Virus record (IMG/VR): IMGVR_UViG_3300008339_000335 | Location: 1-29,569 of that record | Direction: 5' to 3' (one strand) | Length of the DNA stretch: 29,569 nt | Source: a virus | Shown here: piece by piece, positions 5,297 through 13,172 of the stretch | How the letters are laid out: each line of letters starts with the position of its first letter | Numbering within the stretch: the first letter of the stretch is position 1 | The notes under the pieces: model-generated | Told to the model about the DNA's origin: nothing | The model's input: the letters and a program-made list of their open reading frames with translations, nothing else | Databases searched by the model: none | Program-made: the position numbers and the translations under genes

Positions 5297-5695
5297 ATGG
5301 AAACAACAAGACCCACAGTTTCAATTAAAAAACATTTGCAAACTATAACCTATAAATTCACGCCGTTAACGCATAACGAAATATGCGAACGCATTGAAGC
5401 CGCACGCACGCGCCATAGTTTTAATAAAGCAGAATTTTGTCAAATGATGGGGTATAACCCAACGATATTAAATAAATGGCTTAAAGGCGCTAATTTTAGC
5501 TCTAAATCTTATAGAAGTGCAATGGAGCTTATTAAAAAGCTAGACGAAGCGCCTAAACAAACCGAAATTAAGTTTAACCCGAAGCCTATCGAGAAACCTA
5601 ACTACGGCGTACTAACGCTCGAGGCGGCTATTAAAATGGTTAAGGACGCAGGCTATAAGGTAAGCAAGCGCGTAGAAACATGGGAGGAGATTTAA
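5297..5695 (+). CDS. Helix-turn-helix DNA-binding protein
   Basis: A 132-residue protein. Residues about 26-82 look like an XRE/Cro-type domain: ICERIEAARTRH, then the HTH core at 43-64 (NKAEFCQMMGYNPTILNKWLKG), where the second helix reads TILNKWLKG as in many Cro-like proteins. The C-terminal half carries a linker rich in Lys and Pro and a short helix with ...LEAAIKMVKDAGYKV, the pattern of an effector or dimer segment. It lies in the early operon, so it could regulate the inverted-repeat promoters at 3255 and 10377; that is a guess. The gene ends in a GGAGGAG sequence that serves the next start. Confidence 0.75.
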   Translation: METTRPTVSIKKHLQTITYKFTPLTHNEICERIEAARTRHSFNKAEFCQMMGYNPTILNKWLKGANFSSKSYRSAMELIKKLDEAPKQTEIKFNPKPIEKPNYGVLTLEAAIKMVKDAGYKVSKRVETWEEI

Positions 5696-5928
5696 TGAAA
5701 AAGCAAACAGCAGTTGAGTGGTTGGCACTTTACATTAAAGGCATAACAAATCTAAATTGTGATGAAGTTATTGACCAAGCCAAAGCAATGGAGAAGGAGC
5801 ATTTTTTTAAAGTATTTAGGTCAGGTTTTATAAATGGCAATCTTATTGAAACAGAATATTTTAATGATAATAAAGAAGAATTAATTAAATCAGCATTCAA
5901 ATCATTTGAAAATTATTACGAACTATGA
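5695..5928 (+). CDS. Small unknown protein with a rare Shine-Dalgarno start
   Basis: A 77-residue protein starting MKKQTAVEWLALYI, an opening seen in many small hypothetical proteins of flavobacterial and related phages. I chose ATG 5695 rather than 5680, because the sequence GGGAGGAG (5682-5689) lies six bases upstream of it and the ATG overlaps the previous stop (TAATG). This is one of very few clear Shine-Dalgarno sites in the window. Base and codon use is AT-rich and unlike the flanking genes, suggesting separate acquisition. No function can be given. Confidence 0.75.
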   Translation: MKKQTAVEWLALYIKGITNLNCDEVIDQAKAMEKEHFFKVFRSGFINGNLIETEYFNDNKEELIKSAFKSFENYYEL

Positions 5929-7344: not shown

Positions 7345-8745
7345 ATGAACACAAGACAAACACAACTATTCGAGCCAAAAATCGAAATAAAAAAAGTTAA
7401 TTCAGTTATAGGCTCAGGCTACGAGGTAAAAGTAGCCGAACTCGCTTTATTAGACGGAGTAGCATATCGAGCCGCAAGAAAGAATATGCAAAAGAACTCA
7501 GCTATTATTTGTGAGATTGACGGTAATTTTGCGGGCTTTTTTACTTACGAGGTTAACCACGTTGTAAAAGAGTTTTGCTTGCTTCAGTCGGCAATGTATC
7601 CCGAGTATAAAGATAAAACCATTTATTCGATGATGGTTTCTGAAATCATTAAACAAAATACCGATAACTATGTAATGATAATGACGGTATCTAAAAAGCA
7701 TGATTTAGAAAATCCAAAAGTTTTTACGGCTTTAGGCTTTAAGGTTAATTTAGAAAAGTCTGATTTCGTTTATATGTATTACGGTCAACCTGAACAAGTG
7801 CGTATAAAAAAACTTTGCCATATGGCTATGACTAATTTATGGCAATCAACTAGCGGCGAATGGTTAAAGATTAAAAGAGAATGGAACGAAAAAATTGAGC
7901 TTGCAGGTTTAAAGCATAAAATACCTAATCCAAAGTTTGCAAGCCGCGAGGGTTGCTGGCAGGGTAGCAGCGGAATGAGTAACGTAGTTTTGTCTAAACA
8001 GGTCGTTAAAGACGACGAAATTATAACTGATAAAGGCAAAGACCTTAACGGTAACGCAAGCGTATTAGACCCTGCATTGTGTGAAATAATAGTTAAAATG
8101 TTTATGCCAAAAAATGGAGTAAGGGTATATAATCCGTTTGGCGGCGGCGTTCAAATGGGTTTCGTAGCTGGGGGGTGCGGATATGAATATTTAGCCTCTG
8201 AAATTAGACAAAACCAATGCGACGCTAATAATGCCATTTGTCAAGATTTTTATAATGTTAAATGGGTAAAATCAGATAGTTCAAAATACTTACCTAAAAA
8301 CCCTGAAAAATTTGATTTAATATTTTCTTGCCCGCCATATTATAAAGTAGAAAAATATATTGATTACGACGGCAAATCGCCAAACGGAGAATTAAACACT
8401 TTGCCAACCTACGAGGAATTTAGAGATTTACTTTTCGAGGGTTATAAAAAAGCTATTTCAGTAATGAATGATAATACATTTTTTGTTGTAATGACGGGAG
8501 ATAGTAGAGATGCAAAAGGCGGTTATTATGGATGCGAAGCCGAACACGAATTATTTTTTAAAAGTCAAGGGCTGCATATTTATAATAGGATAGTTTATTT
8601 AGAAAGTGAATTTACGCGTCGTGCAACGGCTAAGAAAACATTAAATTCTAGAAAGTATCCGAAATGCGAACAAAAAGTATATGCGTTTTTTAAAGGCGAC
8701 CCTAATAAAATTAAAGACTTATTTCCAAACGTTGGGCGCTTATAA
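7345..8745 (+). CDS. GNAT-like domain fused to a DNA methyltransferase
   Basis: A 466-residue two-domain protein. Residues about 20-145 look like a GNAT acyltransferase: AIICEIDGNFAGFFTYEV strands, then the AMYPEYKDKTIYSMMVSEII segment in the position of the acyl-CoA loop and helix, and NPKVFTALGFKV at the end. Residues about 160-455 are an amino-methyltransferase: NPFGGG (263-268) at the SAM-binding site and SCPPY (328-332) at the catalytic site, followed by FFVVMTGDSRDAKGGYYG, a segment seen in ParB-associated phage methylases. Motif order is SAM site first. The target base is not readable. The fused acyltransferase recalls Mu Mom, a GNAT-fold enzyme that hypermodifies adenine, so it may add more than a methyl group; this is inference. 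The gene is AT-richer than its surroundings and overlaps the next gene by one base. Confidence 0.85.
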   Translation: MNTRQTQLFEPKIEIKKVNSVIGSGYEVKVAELALLDGVAYRAARKNMQKNSAIICEIDGNFAGFFTYEVNHVVKEFCLLQSAMYPEYKDKTIYSMMVSEIIKQNTDNYVMIMTVSKKHDLENPKVFTALGFKVNLEKSDFVYMYYGQPEQVRIKKLCHMAMTNLWQSTSGEWLKIKREWNEKIELAGLKHKIPNPKFASREGCWQGSSGMSNVVLSKQVVKDDEIITDKGKDLNGNASVLDPALCEIIVKMFMPKNGVRVYNPFGGGVQMGFVAGGCGYEYLASEIRQNQCDANNAICQDFYNVKWVKSDSSKYLPKNPEKFDLIFSCPPYYKVEKYIDYDGKSPNGELNTLPTYEEFRDLLFEGYKKAISVMNDNTFFVVMTGDSRDAKGGYYGCEAEHELFFKSQGLHIYNRIVYLESEFTRRATAKKTLNSRKYPKCEQKVYAFFKGDPNKIKDLFPNVGRL

Positions 8746-9539
8746 TGAAAACTTATTCTAATGTAATTTCATTAACTAAAAATGCGCGCGGTATTTATTC
8801 AATAGACCCTACGGCTGGCTGTTCTTCAGGAACCAAAAACAATAAGCTAGGATGTTATAATGATTGTTACGCCGCGCGCATTGCTAAAATTTACGGCTAT
8901 AATTTTAGCAAAACAGTTATAAAGAATTTTACAAGCCAAAAGCATTTACATAAAATCAAAAGAGAAATAAATAAAATTAATATGCCTTTTATTCGTATGG
9001 GTACAATGGGCGACCCGTCCGAAGACTGGGAGCATACTATATCGATATGCGAAAAGCTGCAAAATAATATCCAGTTAGATATGTTTAAAGATGATAGTCG
9101 AAAAGAAATAGTTATAATAACTAAACATTGGGCTGTTTTAAGTTACGAACAACTTAAAAGAATATCAAAACTAAAAATATGTATTAATACTTCCGTTTCT
9201 GCAATAGACGAAAAAAGACAACTAGATTTATGTTTAAACGAATACGAACGAATTAAACCCTATTGTAAATCAATTTTAAGGTTAGTTTCATTCGATTTTA
9301 ACACTAATTCAAATGAAGGTAAAATATATTCAGAAATACAGGCGCAAATTTTTAGTAAGTATGAAGTTTTGGATACGGTTTTTAGAAGCTCTAAAAATAA
9401 CCAGCTAGTAAAAAACGGCATAATAAATATCCATAAAACAAAATTTTTAGGTAAAAAAACATATGTATCAAAGTTTAATAAAAAAACCTATTTTGGTAAT
9501 TGTAAAAACTGTTTGGAAATGTGCGGAGTAAATATGTAA
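8745..9539 (+). CDS. Cysteine-cluster protein, radical-SAM-like, partner of the GNAT-methyltransferase
   Basis: A 264-residue protein with two Cys clusters: Cys26, Cys37 and Cys41 (AGCSSG and LGCYNDCYAARIA) and Cys253, Cys256 and Cys260 (NCKNCLEMC). The GCxNDCYA phrase followed by a basic helix resembles phage radical-SAM-like proteins of the DUF5131 (Gp37/Gp68) and GP88 type, as does the central RMGTMGDPSEDW strand and the KICINTSVSA strand. The classical CxxxCxxC motif is absent, so Fe-S/SAM chemistry is only probable. The start overlaps the stop of the methyltransferase fusion (TAATG), and both share AT-rich codon use, so they probably entered as a unit and act in one pathway. It is followed by a structured RNA, not by another gene. 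Confidence 0.7.
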   Translation: MKTYSNVISLTKNARGIYSIDPTAGCSSGTKNNKLGCYNDCYAARIAKIYGYNFSKTVIKNFTSQKHLHKIKREINKINMPFIRMGTMGDPSEDWEHTISICEKLQNNIQLDMFKDDSRKEIVIITKHWAVLSYEQLKRISKLKICINTSVSAIDEKRQLDLCLNEYERIKPYCKSILRLVSFDFNTNSNEGKIYSEIQAQIFSKYEVLDTVFRSSKNNQLVKNGIINIHKTKFLGKKTYVSKFNKKTYFGNCKNCLEMCGVNM

Positions 9540-9675: not shown

Positions 9676-10365
9676 ATGTTTAATTACTTTAATGGGTATT
9701 GGAATTGGGCTTTGGAAAACCCCGAGCATAATAACCCGACCTCGACCGCTATTTATTTTTATATTGTTTCGGTAGCTAATCAATTAGGCTGGAAGTCTGA
9801 ATTTAGCCTTTCTTCAACTCAGGTTATGAACGGCTGCGGAATAGCCAACTATAAAACCTATAAAAAGCATTTCGATATTTTGGTTGAAAACGGGCTTATT
9901 AACGTAGTTCGTCAATCTAAAAATCAATACATGGCTAATATAATTGCTCTAGTAAATTTTACCGAAGCACTACCAAAGCAAAGCAAAAGCACTACCGAAG
10001 CATTACCGAAGCAAGCCCAAAGCACCGCCCATATACATAAGACTATAAAGACTATAAAGACTTATAAGAGTATAGAAGAAATAAAGGGCAGGGATTTTTT
10101 TAAAGACCAACAAATAAACGCCCTATTTATTCAATTCCTATCTGAGCGAATAGCGCGTAAAAAATACCCTACCGAAAACGCTATACAGCTACTAATAAAA
10201 AAAATGCGTGAGCTTTATAAAAGCAAAGAGCAAGCCGTCGAGGGTTTAGAAACTGCGATAGCTAACGGGTGGAGCGGTTTATTTGAAGTTAAAAACAACG
10301 CCTCTAAACAACCGCAAACCGCGCCAACGCTTACGCGAGCCTCGAGGGGCGTTAAAATGGAATAA
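9676..10365 (+). CDS. Replication initiator / helix-turn-helix replisome organiser
   Basis: A 229-residue protein. Residues 1-95 form the winged-helix domain of Bacteroidota phage replication proteins: YWNWALENPEHNNPTSTAIY, then LGWKSEFSLSSTQVM and the NYKTYKKHFDILVENGLI helix-turn-helix with the wing ending at NQYMANIIAL. Residues 97-125 are a linker holding an 11-residue repeat (EALPKQSKSTT and EALPKQAQSTA). Residues about 140-210 form a helical C-terminal domain (DnaD-like position), ending with a basic tail. Such proteins bind the origin and load the helicase, here the DnaB gene 385 bases downstream. Its own coding sequence contains the probable origin. The start lies four bases after a T7 run with no ribosome-binding site visible. 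Confidence 0.87.
   Translation: MFNYFNGYWNWALENPEHNNPTSTAIYFYIVSVANQLGWKSEFSLSSTQVMNGCGIANYKTYKKHFDILVENGLINVVRQSKNQYMANIIALVNFTEALPKQSKSTTEALPKQAQSTAHIHKTIKTIKTYKSIEEIKGRDFFKDQQINALFIQFLSERIARKKYPTENAIQLLIKKMRELYKSKEQAVEGLETAIANGWSGLFEVKNNASKQPQTAPTLTRASRGVKME
9961..10076. other. Probable replication origin: iterons and AT-rich unwinding repeats inside the initiator gene
   Basis: Six 9-base units start exactly every 11 bases: ACCGAAGCA at 9961, 9994 and 10005, ACCAAAGCA at 9972, GCAAAAGCA at 9983 and CCCAAAGCA at 10016. About 17 bases later come four AT-rich 9-base repeats: GACTATAAA at 10041 and 10050, GACTTATAA at 10059 and GAGTATAGA at 10068. Iterons phased by about one helical turn beside an AT-rich repeat, inside the initiator gene, are the plan of the lambda origin within gene O. 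The role is inferred from this plan. Confidence 0.7.
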
Positions 10366-10376
10366 AAAAAAGTAAA

Positions 10377-10442
10377 TTATTTTTGTTTAGGTATTGCGCA
10401 TTCAAAATAAAGTTGTATATTTGCATAGTTAAACATTTAAAC
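10377..10442 (+). promoter_or_regulatory. Promoter with operator-like repeat (copy B of the duplicated 67-bp element)
   Basis: TTG at 10394-10396 and TATATTTG at 10416-10423 are 19 bases apart, exactly as in copy A at 3255-3321. The ATTTTTG ... CAAAAT inverted repeat around the -33 region and the AAACATTTAAAC leader (10431-10442) are also kept. Offsets between copies are constant at 7122 bases through the leader, so the element is duplicated and not convergent chance. Confidence 0.8.
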
Positions 10443-10451
10443 ACTTACACA

Positions 10452-10703
10452 ATGAAAAAATGTACACAAATTGAAGAAATCAACTCAGGTGATGTTGTTC
10501 TTCGCAGTAATGGATTAAAAGCAAAACCATCAGAAATTGAAGTATTATCTATTGAAGTTAGTGGTACTTATGCTTTGATGACTTGGAAATGGAAAAATTC
10601 AACTAAGCACTATTATTCAACTGATTTTAGAAAATCGACCAATATAGCCGATTATGGTTTTTGGCATGATTTAACTACACAGCAATGGGAGTTAAAAAAT
10701 TAA
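10452..10703 (+). CDS. Small protein behind the second promoter copy
   Basis: An 83-residue protein (MKKCTQIEEINSGDVVLRSN...) with alternating strands, perhaps a small beta-barrel; unrecognised. I start it at ATG 10452 and not at the upstream in-frame ATG at 10383, because the latter lies within the promoter element, and because the start then sits ten bases after the AAACATTTAAAC leader as in the 3331 gene. Its AT-rich codon use contrasts with the helicase gene and matches the 3331 gene. A GC hairpin follows. The two small genes could be co-regulated, since their promoters and operators are duplicates. Confidence 0.75.
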   Translation: MKKCTQIEEINSGDVVLRSNGLKAKPSEIEVLSIEVSGTYALMTWKWKNSTKHYYSTDFRKSTNIADYGFWHDLTTQQWELKN

Positions 10704-10749: not shown

Positions 10750-12126
10750 ATGAAACCGCTCCCGAAAATAGAACAAGCCCTAATTTATATTTCGCTTTTA
10801 AACGACGATACGTGGCGCGAAATTATACCGCAGCTATCCGAACACCACTTTAAGGACGAACTAGCGTTAAAATGCTTTAAAACGATTAAAAACATAATAG
10901 CAGATAACAAGCAACCAACACTAATAACGTTAGCGCAATTCGGGCGCTTAGAAAAAACATTTACAGGCTCAGACCTTTCAAATATCGCAAGCTGGGGCGA
11001 CGAATTTTATTTTAACCAGCCCGTTAATGATTATATAGCAATTCTAAAGGACGAACATATTAAGCGCCAAATAAGCTCCGTTATGGTCGAAGCCTCTCTA
11101 GAGTTTAGCGGCTTACGCGGCGGCGCTCAAACGGCAGCCGAAATAATTAAACGCCTTAACACGTTACTCGAGGACGGCGCTAGTAATGATAACATGCTCG
11201 ACACGTTAACCCTAGCGCACGAAGAACGGCAAGCCTATTACCGCCGCGCCGAACTGCATTTAAGCGGTAAAACAAGCGGGTTAAATACAGGGTTAAGCGC
11301 CTTAAATAGGTTTACGGGCGGCTTTCACCCCGAGTTAATTATACTAGCGGGGCGCCCCTCTATGGGAAAAACAGCGCTTGCGTTATATCACGCCTGCAAC
11401 TTTAACGAGCCGGGTATATACTTTAACCTCGAAATGAATAAAAGCCAGCTATGCCAGCGCTTAATATTGCAGCATTCAAATGAAAAGATTAACAGCGCAC
11501 GGCTACGCGACGGCAATTTAACGCAGCCCGAATTACACGCATTCGAAACTACGATAGGCACGGTCGAAAATTTGCCCTTTCTTATTTACGACAAACCGCG
11601 CTGCGGCGTACATGAAGCAATAAGAGTTATGCGCCGCGAAGCCCGCAAGGGTAATTGTAAATGGGTTATAATCGACTATTTGCAGTTAATGACGATAGAG
11701 GGCTTCAGAGGCGGCAACCGCGAGGCTGAAGTAGCCGAAATAAGCCGAACGCTAAAAGCCGCGCAAAAGGAATTAAACATACCTCTTATAGCCCTTGCGC
11801 AGCTATCGCGTCAAGTTGAGCAGCGAGCGGATAAACGCCCTATACTTTCGGACTTGCGCGAAAGCGGCTCAATAGAACAGGACGCCGACACGGTTATATT
11901 TATTTACCGCCCCGAATACTACGCGCTAAACGACGAACTCGGTAAGCCGTATAGCTCCGACGTTTTTTACCTATTCGAGAAACACCGTCAAGGCTCGACG
12001 GGCGAGGTACGTTTTAAGCATAATAGCACGATAACCAGCTTTAGCGATATTGCAACTAGCGGAGGCAGCACCTTTTTACCTTTGCCTATAAACACTAACT
12101 TTGACGAAGAACTAACGCCCTTTTAA
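10750..12126 (+). CDS. dnaB: Replicative DNA helicase, DnaB family
   Basis: A 458-residue hexameric 5'-3' helicase of full family length. Residues 1-115 are the N-terminal DnaB collar (EQALIYISLLNDD, HHFKDELALKCF, then DYIAILKDEHIKRQ), followed by a linker and the RecA-like motor. Walker A is GRPSMGKTA (201-209), then the FNLEMNKSQL strand, Walker B VIIDYLQL (306-313), LIALAQLSRQVEQR (347-359), and the SDLRESGSIEQDAD loop (367-380) with YRPEYY. All expected motifs are intact. It would be loaded by the initiator encoded at 9676 and unwind from the origin in that gene. Confidence 0.97.
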   Translation: MKPLPKIEQALIYISLLNDDTWREIIPQLSEHHFKDELALKCFKTIKNIIADNKQPTLITLAQFGRLEKTFTGSDLSNIASWGDEFYFNQPVNDYIAILKDEHIKRQISSVMVEASLEFSGLRGGAQTAAEIIKRLNTLLEDGASNDNMLDTLTLAHEERQAYYRRAELHLSGKTSGLNTGLSALNRFTGGFHPELIILAGRPSMGKTALALYHACNFNEPGIYFNLEMNKSQLCQRLILQHSNEKINSARLRDGNLTQPELHAFETTIGTVENLPFLIYDKPRCGVHEAIRVMRREARKGNCKWVIIDYLQLMTIEGFRGGNREAEVAEISRTLKAAQKELNIPLIALAQLSRQVEQRADKRPILSDLRESGSIEQDADTVIFIYRPEYYALNDELGKPYSSDVFYLFEKHRQGSTGEVRFKHNSTITSFSDIATSGGSTFLPLPINTNFDEELTPF

Positions 12127-12416: not shown

Positions 12417-13172
12417 ATGAAAAATTGCAAAGTAGAACCAATGGTGAAGCACAGTAACCAAGTTCACACAACAACCGATTACTTTCTATTTAAACCAATA
12501 GAAGGCAACAGAAACTTAAACCTTTTGCACCTTAACCGACTGCGAAAGTCAATGTCTGAAAAGTATTTATTTACCACAATTTTGGTAAATGAAAACTATG
12601 AAATCATTGATGGACAGCACCGCTTTGAAGTTATCAGAGTACTTGGACTGCCATTGCATTACATTATTTGTGAAAACTACGGATTGCCGGAAGTACAAAT
12701 TTTAAATCAAAATTCAAAAACTTGGAATTCAGATGACTATCTTGAAGGCTATTGCAAACTTGGTTACAATGAATATTTAAAATATAGGCAATTTAAAGAA
12801 ACTTATGATTTCGGTCATAGTGAATGCCAAATGTTATTAACCGGAGTACAGCAAGGTAGTGGTAAAAGAGCAAGTAATGCATCAACATTTTTTTCAGGTG
12901 AATTTAAAATATTGGATTATGATAATGCGTGTTCTATTGCAGATAAAATTCTTCTTATATCACCATATTATGAAGGCATCAAAAGAAAAACTTTTATTGT
13001 TGCAATGGTTCAATTATTAAAAAATCCAAATTTTGAATTTACTGAATTTTTACAAAGATTGAAACTACAACCTACTGCTTTAATTGATTGTGTAAATAAT
13101 TATCAATATATTTCATTAATTGAGGAAATATACAACTATCGCAGGCGTGAAAAGGTTAATCTTAGGTACTAA
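12417..13172 (+). CDS. DGQHR/ParB-sulfiredoxin-like protein
   Basis: A 251-residue protein. Residues about 20-85 fit the ParB/sulfiredoxin nuclease-or-NTP-binding fold: FLFKPIEGNRNLN, LHLNRLRKSM, then IIDGQHRFEVIRVLGLPLHY with the DGQHR motif at 65-69 and the usual LGLP loop after it. The rest is helical with no clear domain. The motif also names DndB-type DGQHR proteins, which regulate DNA phosphorothioation, but ParB-like proteins in phages have many roles. Strongly AT-rich codon use, unlike the helicase before and the genes after, marks it as an inserted cargo gene. The ATG at 12417 and one at 12441 are both possible starts. Confidence 0.8.
   Translation: MKNCKVEPMVKHSNQVHTTTDYFLFKPIEGNRNLNLLHLNRLRKSMSEKYLFTTILVNENYEIIDGQHRFEVIRVLGLPLHYIICENYGLPEVQILNQNSKTWNSDDYLEGYCKLGYNEYLKYRQFKETYDFGHSECQMLLTGVQQGSGKRASNASTFFSGEFKILDYDNACSIADKILLISPYYEGIKRKTFIVAMVQLLKNPNFEFTEFLQRLKLQPTALIDCVNNYQYISLIEEIYNYRRREKVNLRY

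Follow-up and report, generated by a model that had tools for sequence, protein, structure and literature searches.

Two adjacent genes of an uncultured phage encode proteins, here called P0001 and P0002, that very probably function together as a single enzyme system: P0001 is a fusion of a GNAT-like domain to an amino-methyltransferase, and P0002 appears to be a divergent member of the radical-SAM family. We favor, at a probability of about 0.55, the interpretation that these three parts (radical-SAM, GNAT-fold, and amino-methyltransferase) hypermodify nucleic-acid bases, most likely those of the phage's own DNA. The linkage of the genes and the radical-SAM identity of P0002 are the best supported of our claims, and the chemistry is a proposal. 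The window, by which we mean the whole stretch of DNA that was analyzed, corresponds to positions 1 to 29,569 (29,569 bases) of IMG/VR virus record IMGVR_UViG_3300008339_000335 and further encodes a terminase large subunit, a structural protein, and a portal protein. The features discussed below are collected in Table 1.

Table 1. Features of the gene pair and two neighboring genes (positions in the window)
Feature	Position	Strand	Basis or remark
P0001, GNAT-like/amino-methyltransferase fusion, 466 aa	7345..8745	+	ORF; phrog matches; family in 80+ distinct versions
GNAT-fold domain, residues ~11-148	7375..7788	+	Predicted fold
SAM-dependent amino-methyltransferase domain, residues ~240-466	8062..8742	+	phrog_498, 2zie
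Motif I NPFGGG, residues 263-268	8131..8148	+	Invariant in 32 aligned proteins
Motif IV SCPPYY, residues 328-333	8326..8343	+	Alignment; Cys replaces the usual D/N/S
P0002, divergent radical-SAM family protein (rSAM1), 264 aa	8745..9539	+	Fold; profile-profile homology
Candidate [4Fe-4S]/SAM site, C26-x10-C37-x3-C41-Y	8820..8867	+	Invariant; flanked by predicted strand 23-25 and helix 42-49
G86xxGDP(S/C)(E/H) motif, end of second barrel strand	9000..9023	+	Invariant or nearly so
C253-x2-C256-x3-C260, candidate C-terminal metal or auxiliary Fe-S site	9501..9524	+	Invariant
Replication initiator	9676-10365		Window gene
DnaB	10750-12126		Window gene

Results

Linkage and Fusion of the Two Genes

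The first-pass annotation of this DNA had called the two open reading frames, noticed that the stop of one overlaps the start of the other, and proposed a search for the same pair in other phages. The frames do overlap, by a single base, and roughly a hundred phage sequences from the environment carry the pair. The P0001 family was found in every one of the 221 loci examined that hold the P0002 family, a set that includes many repeats of the same contigs and is represented by 82 distinct methylase sequences. When the genes were directly paired (216 loci), the overlap was 1 base in 124 cases and 4 bases in 78 (202 of 216 together). Such pairing is far beyond chance. The genes that surround the pair differ between phages, the commonest being a replication-initiator cluster that lies close to roughly half of the distinct versions, and so the pair appears to move as a cassette. 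In one viral contig (L338) the order of the two genes is reversed.

The case for joint function is strengthened by five proteins (L225, L226, L227, L228, and L337) in which all three domains are joined in a single chain, in the order radical SAM-GNAT-methylase. Four of the fusions come from bacterial contigs (Desulfobacula, Desulfobacterales, Smithella, and Spirochaetes) and one from a viral contig. They were found by way of the methylase; a scan of genome contigs with the P0002 family returned nothing, its patterns probably being too strict for the fused forms. Only 1 of 297 genomes of the phylum of Smithella was positive, as were 4 of 395 genomes of the phylum of Massilibacteroides (two of these with the methylase domain only), and the system is thus rare in bacteria. 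Riemerella columbipharyngis encodes the same methylase domain (L229, 5683-7323) behind another N-terminal domain, which weakly matches PF09924/LPG_synthase_C (an aminoacyl-tRNA-dependent acyltransferase type), and has no radical-SAM gene beside it. It is because of the fusions, the obligate linkage, and the exchange of partners described below that we consider it very probable that P0001 and P0002 act together.

The two genes had also been said to have AT-rich codons unlike those of their neighbors. Their GC3 values are indeed low (0.31 for P0001 and 0.25 for P0002, when most genes of the window lie at roughly 0.4-0.55), but three other window ORFs (5680-5928, 10383-10703, and 12417-13172) are AT-rich as well. 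The last of these, near the pair and with a GC3 of 0.24, encodes a ParB-like protein (phrog_12305, with a weak GmrSD_N match) and is likely to be another AT-rich cargo gene.

P0002 Is Predicted to Be a Divergent Radical-SAM Protein

P0002 had no credible match in Pfam, PHROG, NCBIfam, or PDB sequences; a PDB sequence search with the P0002 family was likewise negative, and none of 50,697 cultured-phage records matched the family. Its AlphaFold (AF2) model (pLDDT 89) is a partial TIM-barrel with predicted strands at residues 18-25, 82-85, 121-126, 145-151, 175-182, and 208-215, in which three cysteines follow the first of the six barrel strands. The 12 best matches in a viral Foldseek search all bear radical-SAM-type names. 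Foldseek against the PDB gave nothing below an E-value of 0.001, only a mixed, weak list that includes some radical-SAM enzymes, SkfB among them. Comparison of profiles by hhalign joined the P0002 family, widened by its fused relatives, to a second family, rSAM2 (see below), with P=5.9e-8 over 205 columns, and a plain hmmsearch with the P0002 family reached rSAM2 proteins at 3e-4 to 7e-3. From its predicted fold, its viral structural matches, and its homology to rSAM2, whose members match PF04055, we conclude that P0002 is in all likelihood a divergent radical-SAM protein, as the first-pass annotation had suspected.

The six cysteines of P0002 and the two methylase motifs of P0001 lie at the residues originally given for them and are conserved in their families. 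All six cysteines are invariant among 36 relatives and again in a wider set of 18 sequences that takes in fusions down to 28% identity. The first gap is x10 in P0002 and x11 in the fusions, and the canonical CxxxCxxC is absent from P0002. That spacing is common but not universal among radical-SAM enzymes, accepted members with other spacings being Elp3 and ThiC. The G86xxGDP motif sits where radical-SAM enzymes have their GGE motif and aligns to GGMTD of rSAM2. In the fused relatives the C-terminal cysteine triplet falls between the radical-SAM and GNAT parts. We also considered membership in DUF5131 (Gp37/Gp68), whose three-Cys proteins have a similar, GC...GCxxCYA-like cysteine pattern, and rejected it: the profile match to P0002 is limited to 25 columns around the cysteines (P=0.011).

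A Second Radical-SAM Family in the Place of P0002

The rSAM2 family stands in the place of P0002 beside ten distinct versions of the GNAT-methylase. In L099, L199, L208, and L217, for example, the gene that follows the GNAT-methylase encodes a different protein with the canonical CxxxCxxC. Three intact rSAM2 proteins were tested and all matched Pfam Radical_SAM (PF04055), two of them above the cut-off. In a quick tree of the methylases, which has some long branches, the rSAM2 partners are scattered, and well-supported branches force at least three changes of partner. Sixty-three loci hold rSAM2 without the GNAT-methylase, and a ParB-type methylase cluster is present in 34 such rSAM2-only loci, which suggests a tie to DNA modification.

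Several other features of loci with rSAM2 deserve mention. In five phages that lack the GNAT-methylase (L251, L252, L253, L256, and L265), a second, larger radical-SAM-like protein of about 434-441 aa is encoded ~2 kb downstream of rSAM2. Two further proteins are encoded near rSAM2 genes (L291, 4807-5502, and L260, 5142-5891): one is similar to queuosine-precursor transporters of the YhhQ/VUT_1 type, and the other may, as judged by eye, resemble tRNA-guanine transglycosylase. Finally, in a Massilibacteroides MAG (L224, 7569-7835) a deletion has left only 88 residues of rSAM2, and in L199 (7395-8251) rSAM2 is split into two ORFs, the GNAT-methylase being intact in both.

The Methyltransferase Domain of P0001

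The assignment of an amino-methyltransferase to P0001 was borne out by profile searches. Residues 204-463 match phrog_498, annotated 'DNA methyltransferase' (6e-40); P0001 also matches phrog_12517 (2.8e-39); the P0001-family profile finds 2zie, a putative modification methylase, in the PDB (2.7e-6); and PF01555 matches 28 of 32 family members, with P0001 itself falling under the gathering score. Residues C329-P330-P331-Y332 are invariant in 22 proteins, two ParB-type phage enzymes among them, and the motif reads S/T-C-P-P-Y. An invariant cysteine in motif IV is unusual among amino-methylases. Relatives of the domain in cultured phages include ParB fusions, as in Listeria B054 gp77 and phiFL3A gp36, and in the cultured-phage relatives P0003 and P0004 the domain is joined to a ParB-type N-terminus. 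P0001 displays the motif I, the CPPY motif IV, and the profile match of the ParB-methylase type, but the N-terminal ParB domain is absent and a GNAT-fold domain stands in its stead, and P0001, unlike the ParB fusions, has a radical-SAM partner. Judging from its sequence, then, the C-terminal part of P0001 is an amino-methyltransferase of the ParB-methylase family, whose target atom may be N4, N6, or another.

The enzyme aTrm11, which forms m2G in tRNA, ranks among the domain's best structural matches. PADLOC matched the domain to mads_2 (1.6e-10) and gave no match for P0002; we dropped a reading of this as a defense system and take it as a generic methylase match. Two relatives of the domain lie in other settings. 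In Croceibacter phage P2559S (L231, 3470-5111), the gene for a ParB-type methylase is directly followed by one for SAM decarboxylase, an arrangement suggesting that decarboxylated SAM serves there as an aminopropyl donor for DNA. A distant relative is encoded on a Borrelia turcica plasmid (NZ_CP028891.1, 23354-24016).

The N-Terminal Domain of P0001 Has a Predicted GNAT Fold

The N-terminus of P0001 had been described as GNAT-like at about residues 20-145, with structure prediction proposed as the check. The AF2 model showed strands and helices in the order b-a-(a)-b-b-b-a-b-a-b-b, which is the GNAT topology, at residues ~13-146, mostly with high pLDDT. The top Foldseek match of whole P0001 was 6d6y, a natural-product methyltransferase-GNAT didomain, in a search in which the contributing domain is not separable. 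At the level of sequence the best PDB profile match was the GNAT 3bln, with an E-value (0.038) that is not significant alone and that fell from 0.83 to 0.46 to 0.038 as the profile was focused and widened. Pfam had no match for the domain. Nor did hhalign find one against 15 GNATs, a test of low power since Mom also fails against ordinary GNATs. We conclude from the predicted fold and the weak sequence matches that P0001 probably begins with a GNAT-fold domain. H72, E76, C78, and S82, together with other residues, are invariant in the family alignment. The acyl-CoA pyrophosphate loop [QR]xxGx[GA] was seen in none of the 19 GNAT domains tested, which speaks against acetyl-CoA itself as the donor.

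Comparison with Known Systems

Elp3 is the catalytic subunit of Elongator, a radical-SAM and GNAT/KAT protein that acts in the formation of cm5U in tRNA, and its cysteine motif is CX9CX2C. The non-canonical first cysteine gap of P0002 (x10, then x3) recalls this arrangement, as does the order of radical-SAM and GNAT domains within one chain, a likeness confined to the five fusions and not found in the window. The GNAT domain of Elp3 hydrolyzes acetyl-CoA, and the acetate passes to the radical-SAM site, where it becomes attached to uridine at C5 (PMC13315578). In DmcElp3 the inter-domain linker binds zinc (PMC7663514), and the cysteine triplet of the fusions likewise lies at the domain junction. 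Unlike Elp3, the present system has a third (methylase) domain and no acyl-CoA loop, usually consists of two genes, is borne by phages, and probably acts on DNA. The NCBIfam ELP3 family model matched neither P0001 nor P0002, and the TIGR01211 matches in genomes that hold fusions were all at places other than the fusions. By analogy of architecture, Elp3 would be the closest mechanistic counterpart of the system, which is not itself a member of the Elp3 family.

Mom of phage Mu, like P0001 in the function proposed here, is a phage nucleic-acid modifier of GNAT type, belonging to the GNAT superfamily and acting on DNA (PMC7824862). The first-pass annotation had proposed a Mom-like acyl step. This proposal fared poorly: a profile comparison of the P0001 family with nine Mom-family proteins gave nothing (P=0.37), in a kind of test that has little power, Mom itself failing in it against ordinary GNATs, and the common Mom motifs (HY near residue 58, ELNRLW, and SYAD) are absent from P0001. 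We therefore rejected membership of P0001 in the Mom family, from which it further differs in its methylase domain and its radical-SAM partner.

A third parallel is the CmoA/CmoX/CmoY system for 5-carboxymethylcytosine, in which a methyltransferase-fold enzyme sets a handle on phage DNA that a second enzyme extends (PMC12783734). CmoX, however, is a relative of C5-methyltransferases that uses carboxy-SAM, no GNAT or radical-SAM protein is mentioned, and N6 or N4 versions of the system were not found by its authors (PMC12783734).

Discussion

How might the three parts divide the work? In the scheme that we favor, the methyltransferase domain, whose family is otherwise fused to ParB, would bind and flip the target base and methylate the base or its adduct. 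The radical-SAM protein would generate a 5'-deoxyadenosyl radical and thereby make a carbon-centered bond on the base or on a small added unit, which the GNAT-fold domain would bind and present, a division of labor like that of Elp3 and proposed by analogy of architecture. The product would mask the phage DNA from host nucleases. We infer DNA as the substrate solely from the family to which the methylase belongs. Several observations count against the scheme: the absence of the acyl-CoA loop from a GNAT domain that is assigned by predicted fold and weak sequence matches, the non-canonical cysteine spacing of P0002, the negative search of 50,697 cultured-phage records for its family, the 63 loci in which rSAM2 occurs apart from the GNAT-methylase, the Riemerella relative, and the failure of Elp3 family models to match either protein. 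A bolder form of the scheme, which we advance tentatively, is that the system is a DNA-directed counterpart of Elp3, that is, a radical-SAM/GNAT pair, equipped with a methylase domain of its own, that evolved separately from the tRNA enzyme and that creates a new hypermodified base with a C-C or C-N bond to a small acyl-derived unit.

The GNAT-fold domain could instead be a non-catalytic recognition module that has replaced ParB, the methylase acting on an amino group and the radical-SAM protein functionalizing that methyl or a neighboring carbon, with no acyl unit involved. The absence of the acyl-CoA loop from all 19 proteins tested, the ParB-type N-terminus on the same methylase domain in P0003 and P0004, and the other N-terminal domain of the Riemerella relative are consistent with such a role, but the domain is strongly conserved, with invariant residues that resemble those of an active site more than those of a simple adaptor, and the Riemerella domain is itself, weakly, of an acyltransferase type (PF09924). 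We regard this explanation as rather unlikely. Modification of RNA (tRNA, rRNA, or mRNA), as a counter-defense or as a takeover of translation, would accord with the action of Elp3 on tRNA and with the structural resemblance of the methylase to aTrm11; the relatives of the methylase at the sequence level are, however, DNA modification methylases and ParB fusions, and we judge an RNA substrate improbable.

We are a shade more skeptical of a mechanism in the manner of Mom, with the GNAT domain adding an acyl-type group to the amino group of adenine, the methylase acting independently, and the adduct tailored by the radical-SAM protein. Mom does provide the precedent of a DNA modifier in the GNAT superfamily (PMC7824862), and Staphylococcus phage Alsa_2 has a Mom-like gene adjoining a DNA methyltransferase gene; against these stand the lack of profile similarity to Mom and of its motifs in P0001. 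Modification of a peptide or protein, as in the tailoring of RiPPs or polyketides, is brought to mind by the 6d6y didomain and by SkfB among the weak matches of P0002, yet clustering of the neighbors revealed no recognized precursor-peptide gene beside the pair, the methylase belongs to a DNA-type family, and this possibility strikes us as very remote. Base hypermodification by the combined action of all three parts, then, is the interpretation we prefer.

A literature search found no description of a module of radical-SAM, GNAT-fold, and methylase parts, though an earlier mention is possible. Hypermodification of DNA is a main route by which phages escape host nucleases, and new pathways yield new enzymes and bases. 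The P0002 family has no Pfam, PHROGs, or NCBIfam entry and carries an unusual cluster motif, and the natural single-chain fusions offer a compact, directly testable protein. If the Elp3-like interpretation is true, viruses would carry out a kind of chemistry new to them, the radical transfer of carbon to the bases of DNA.
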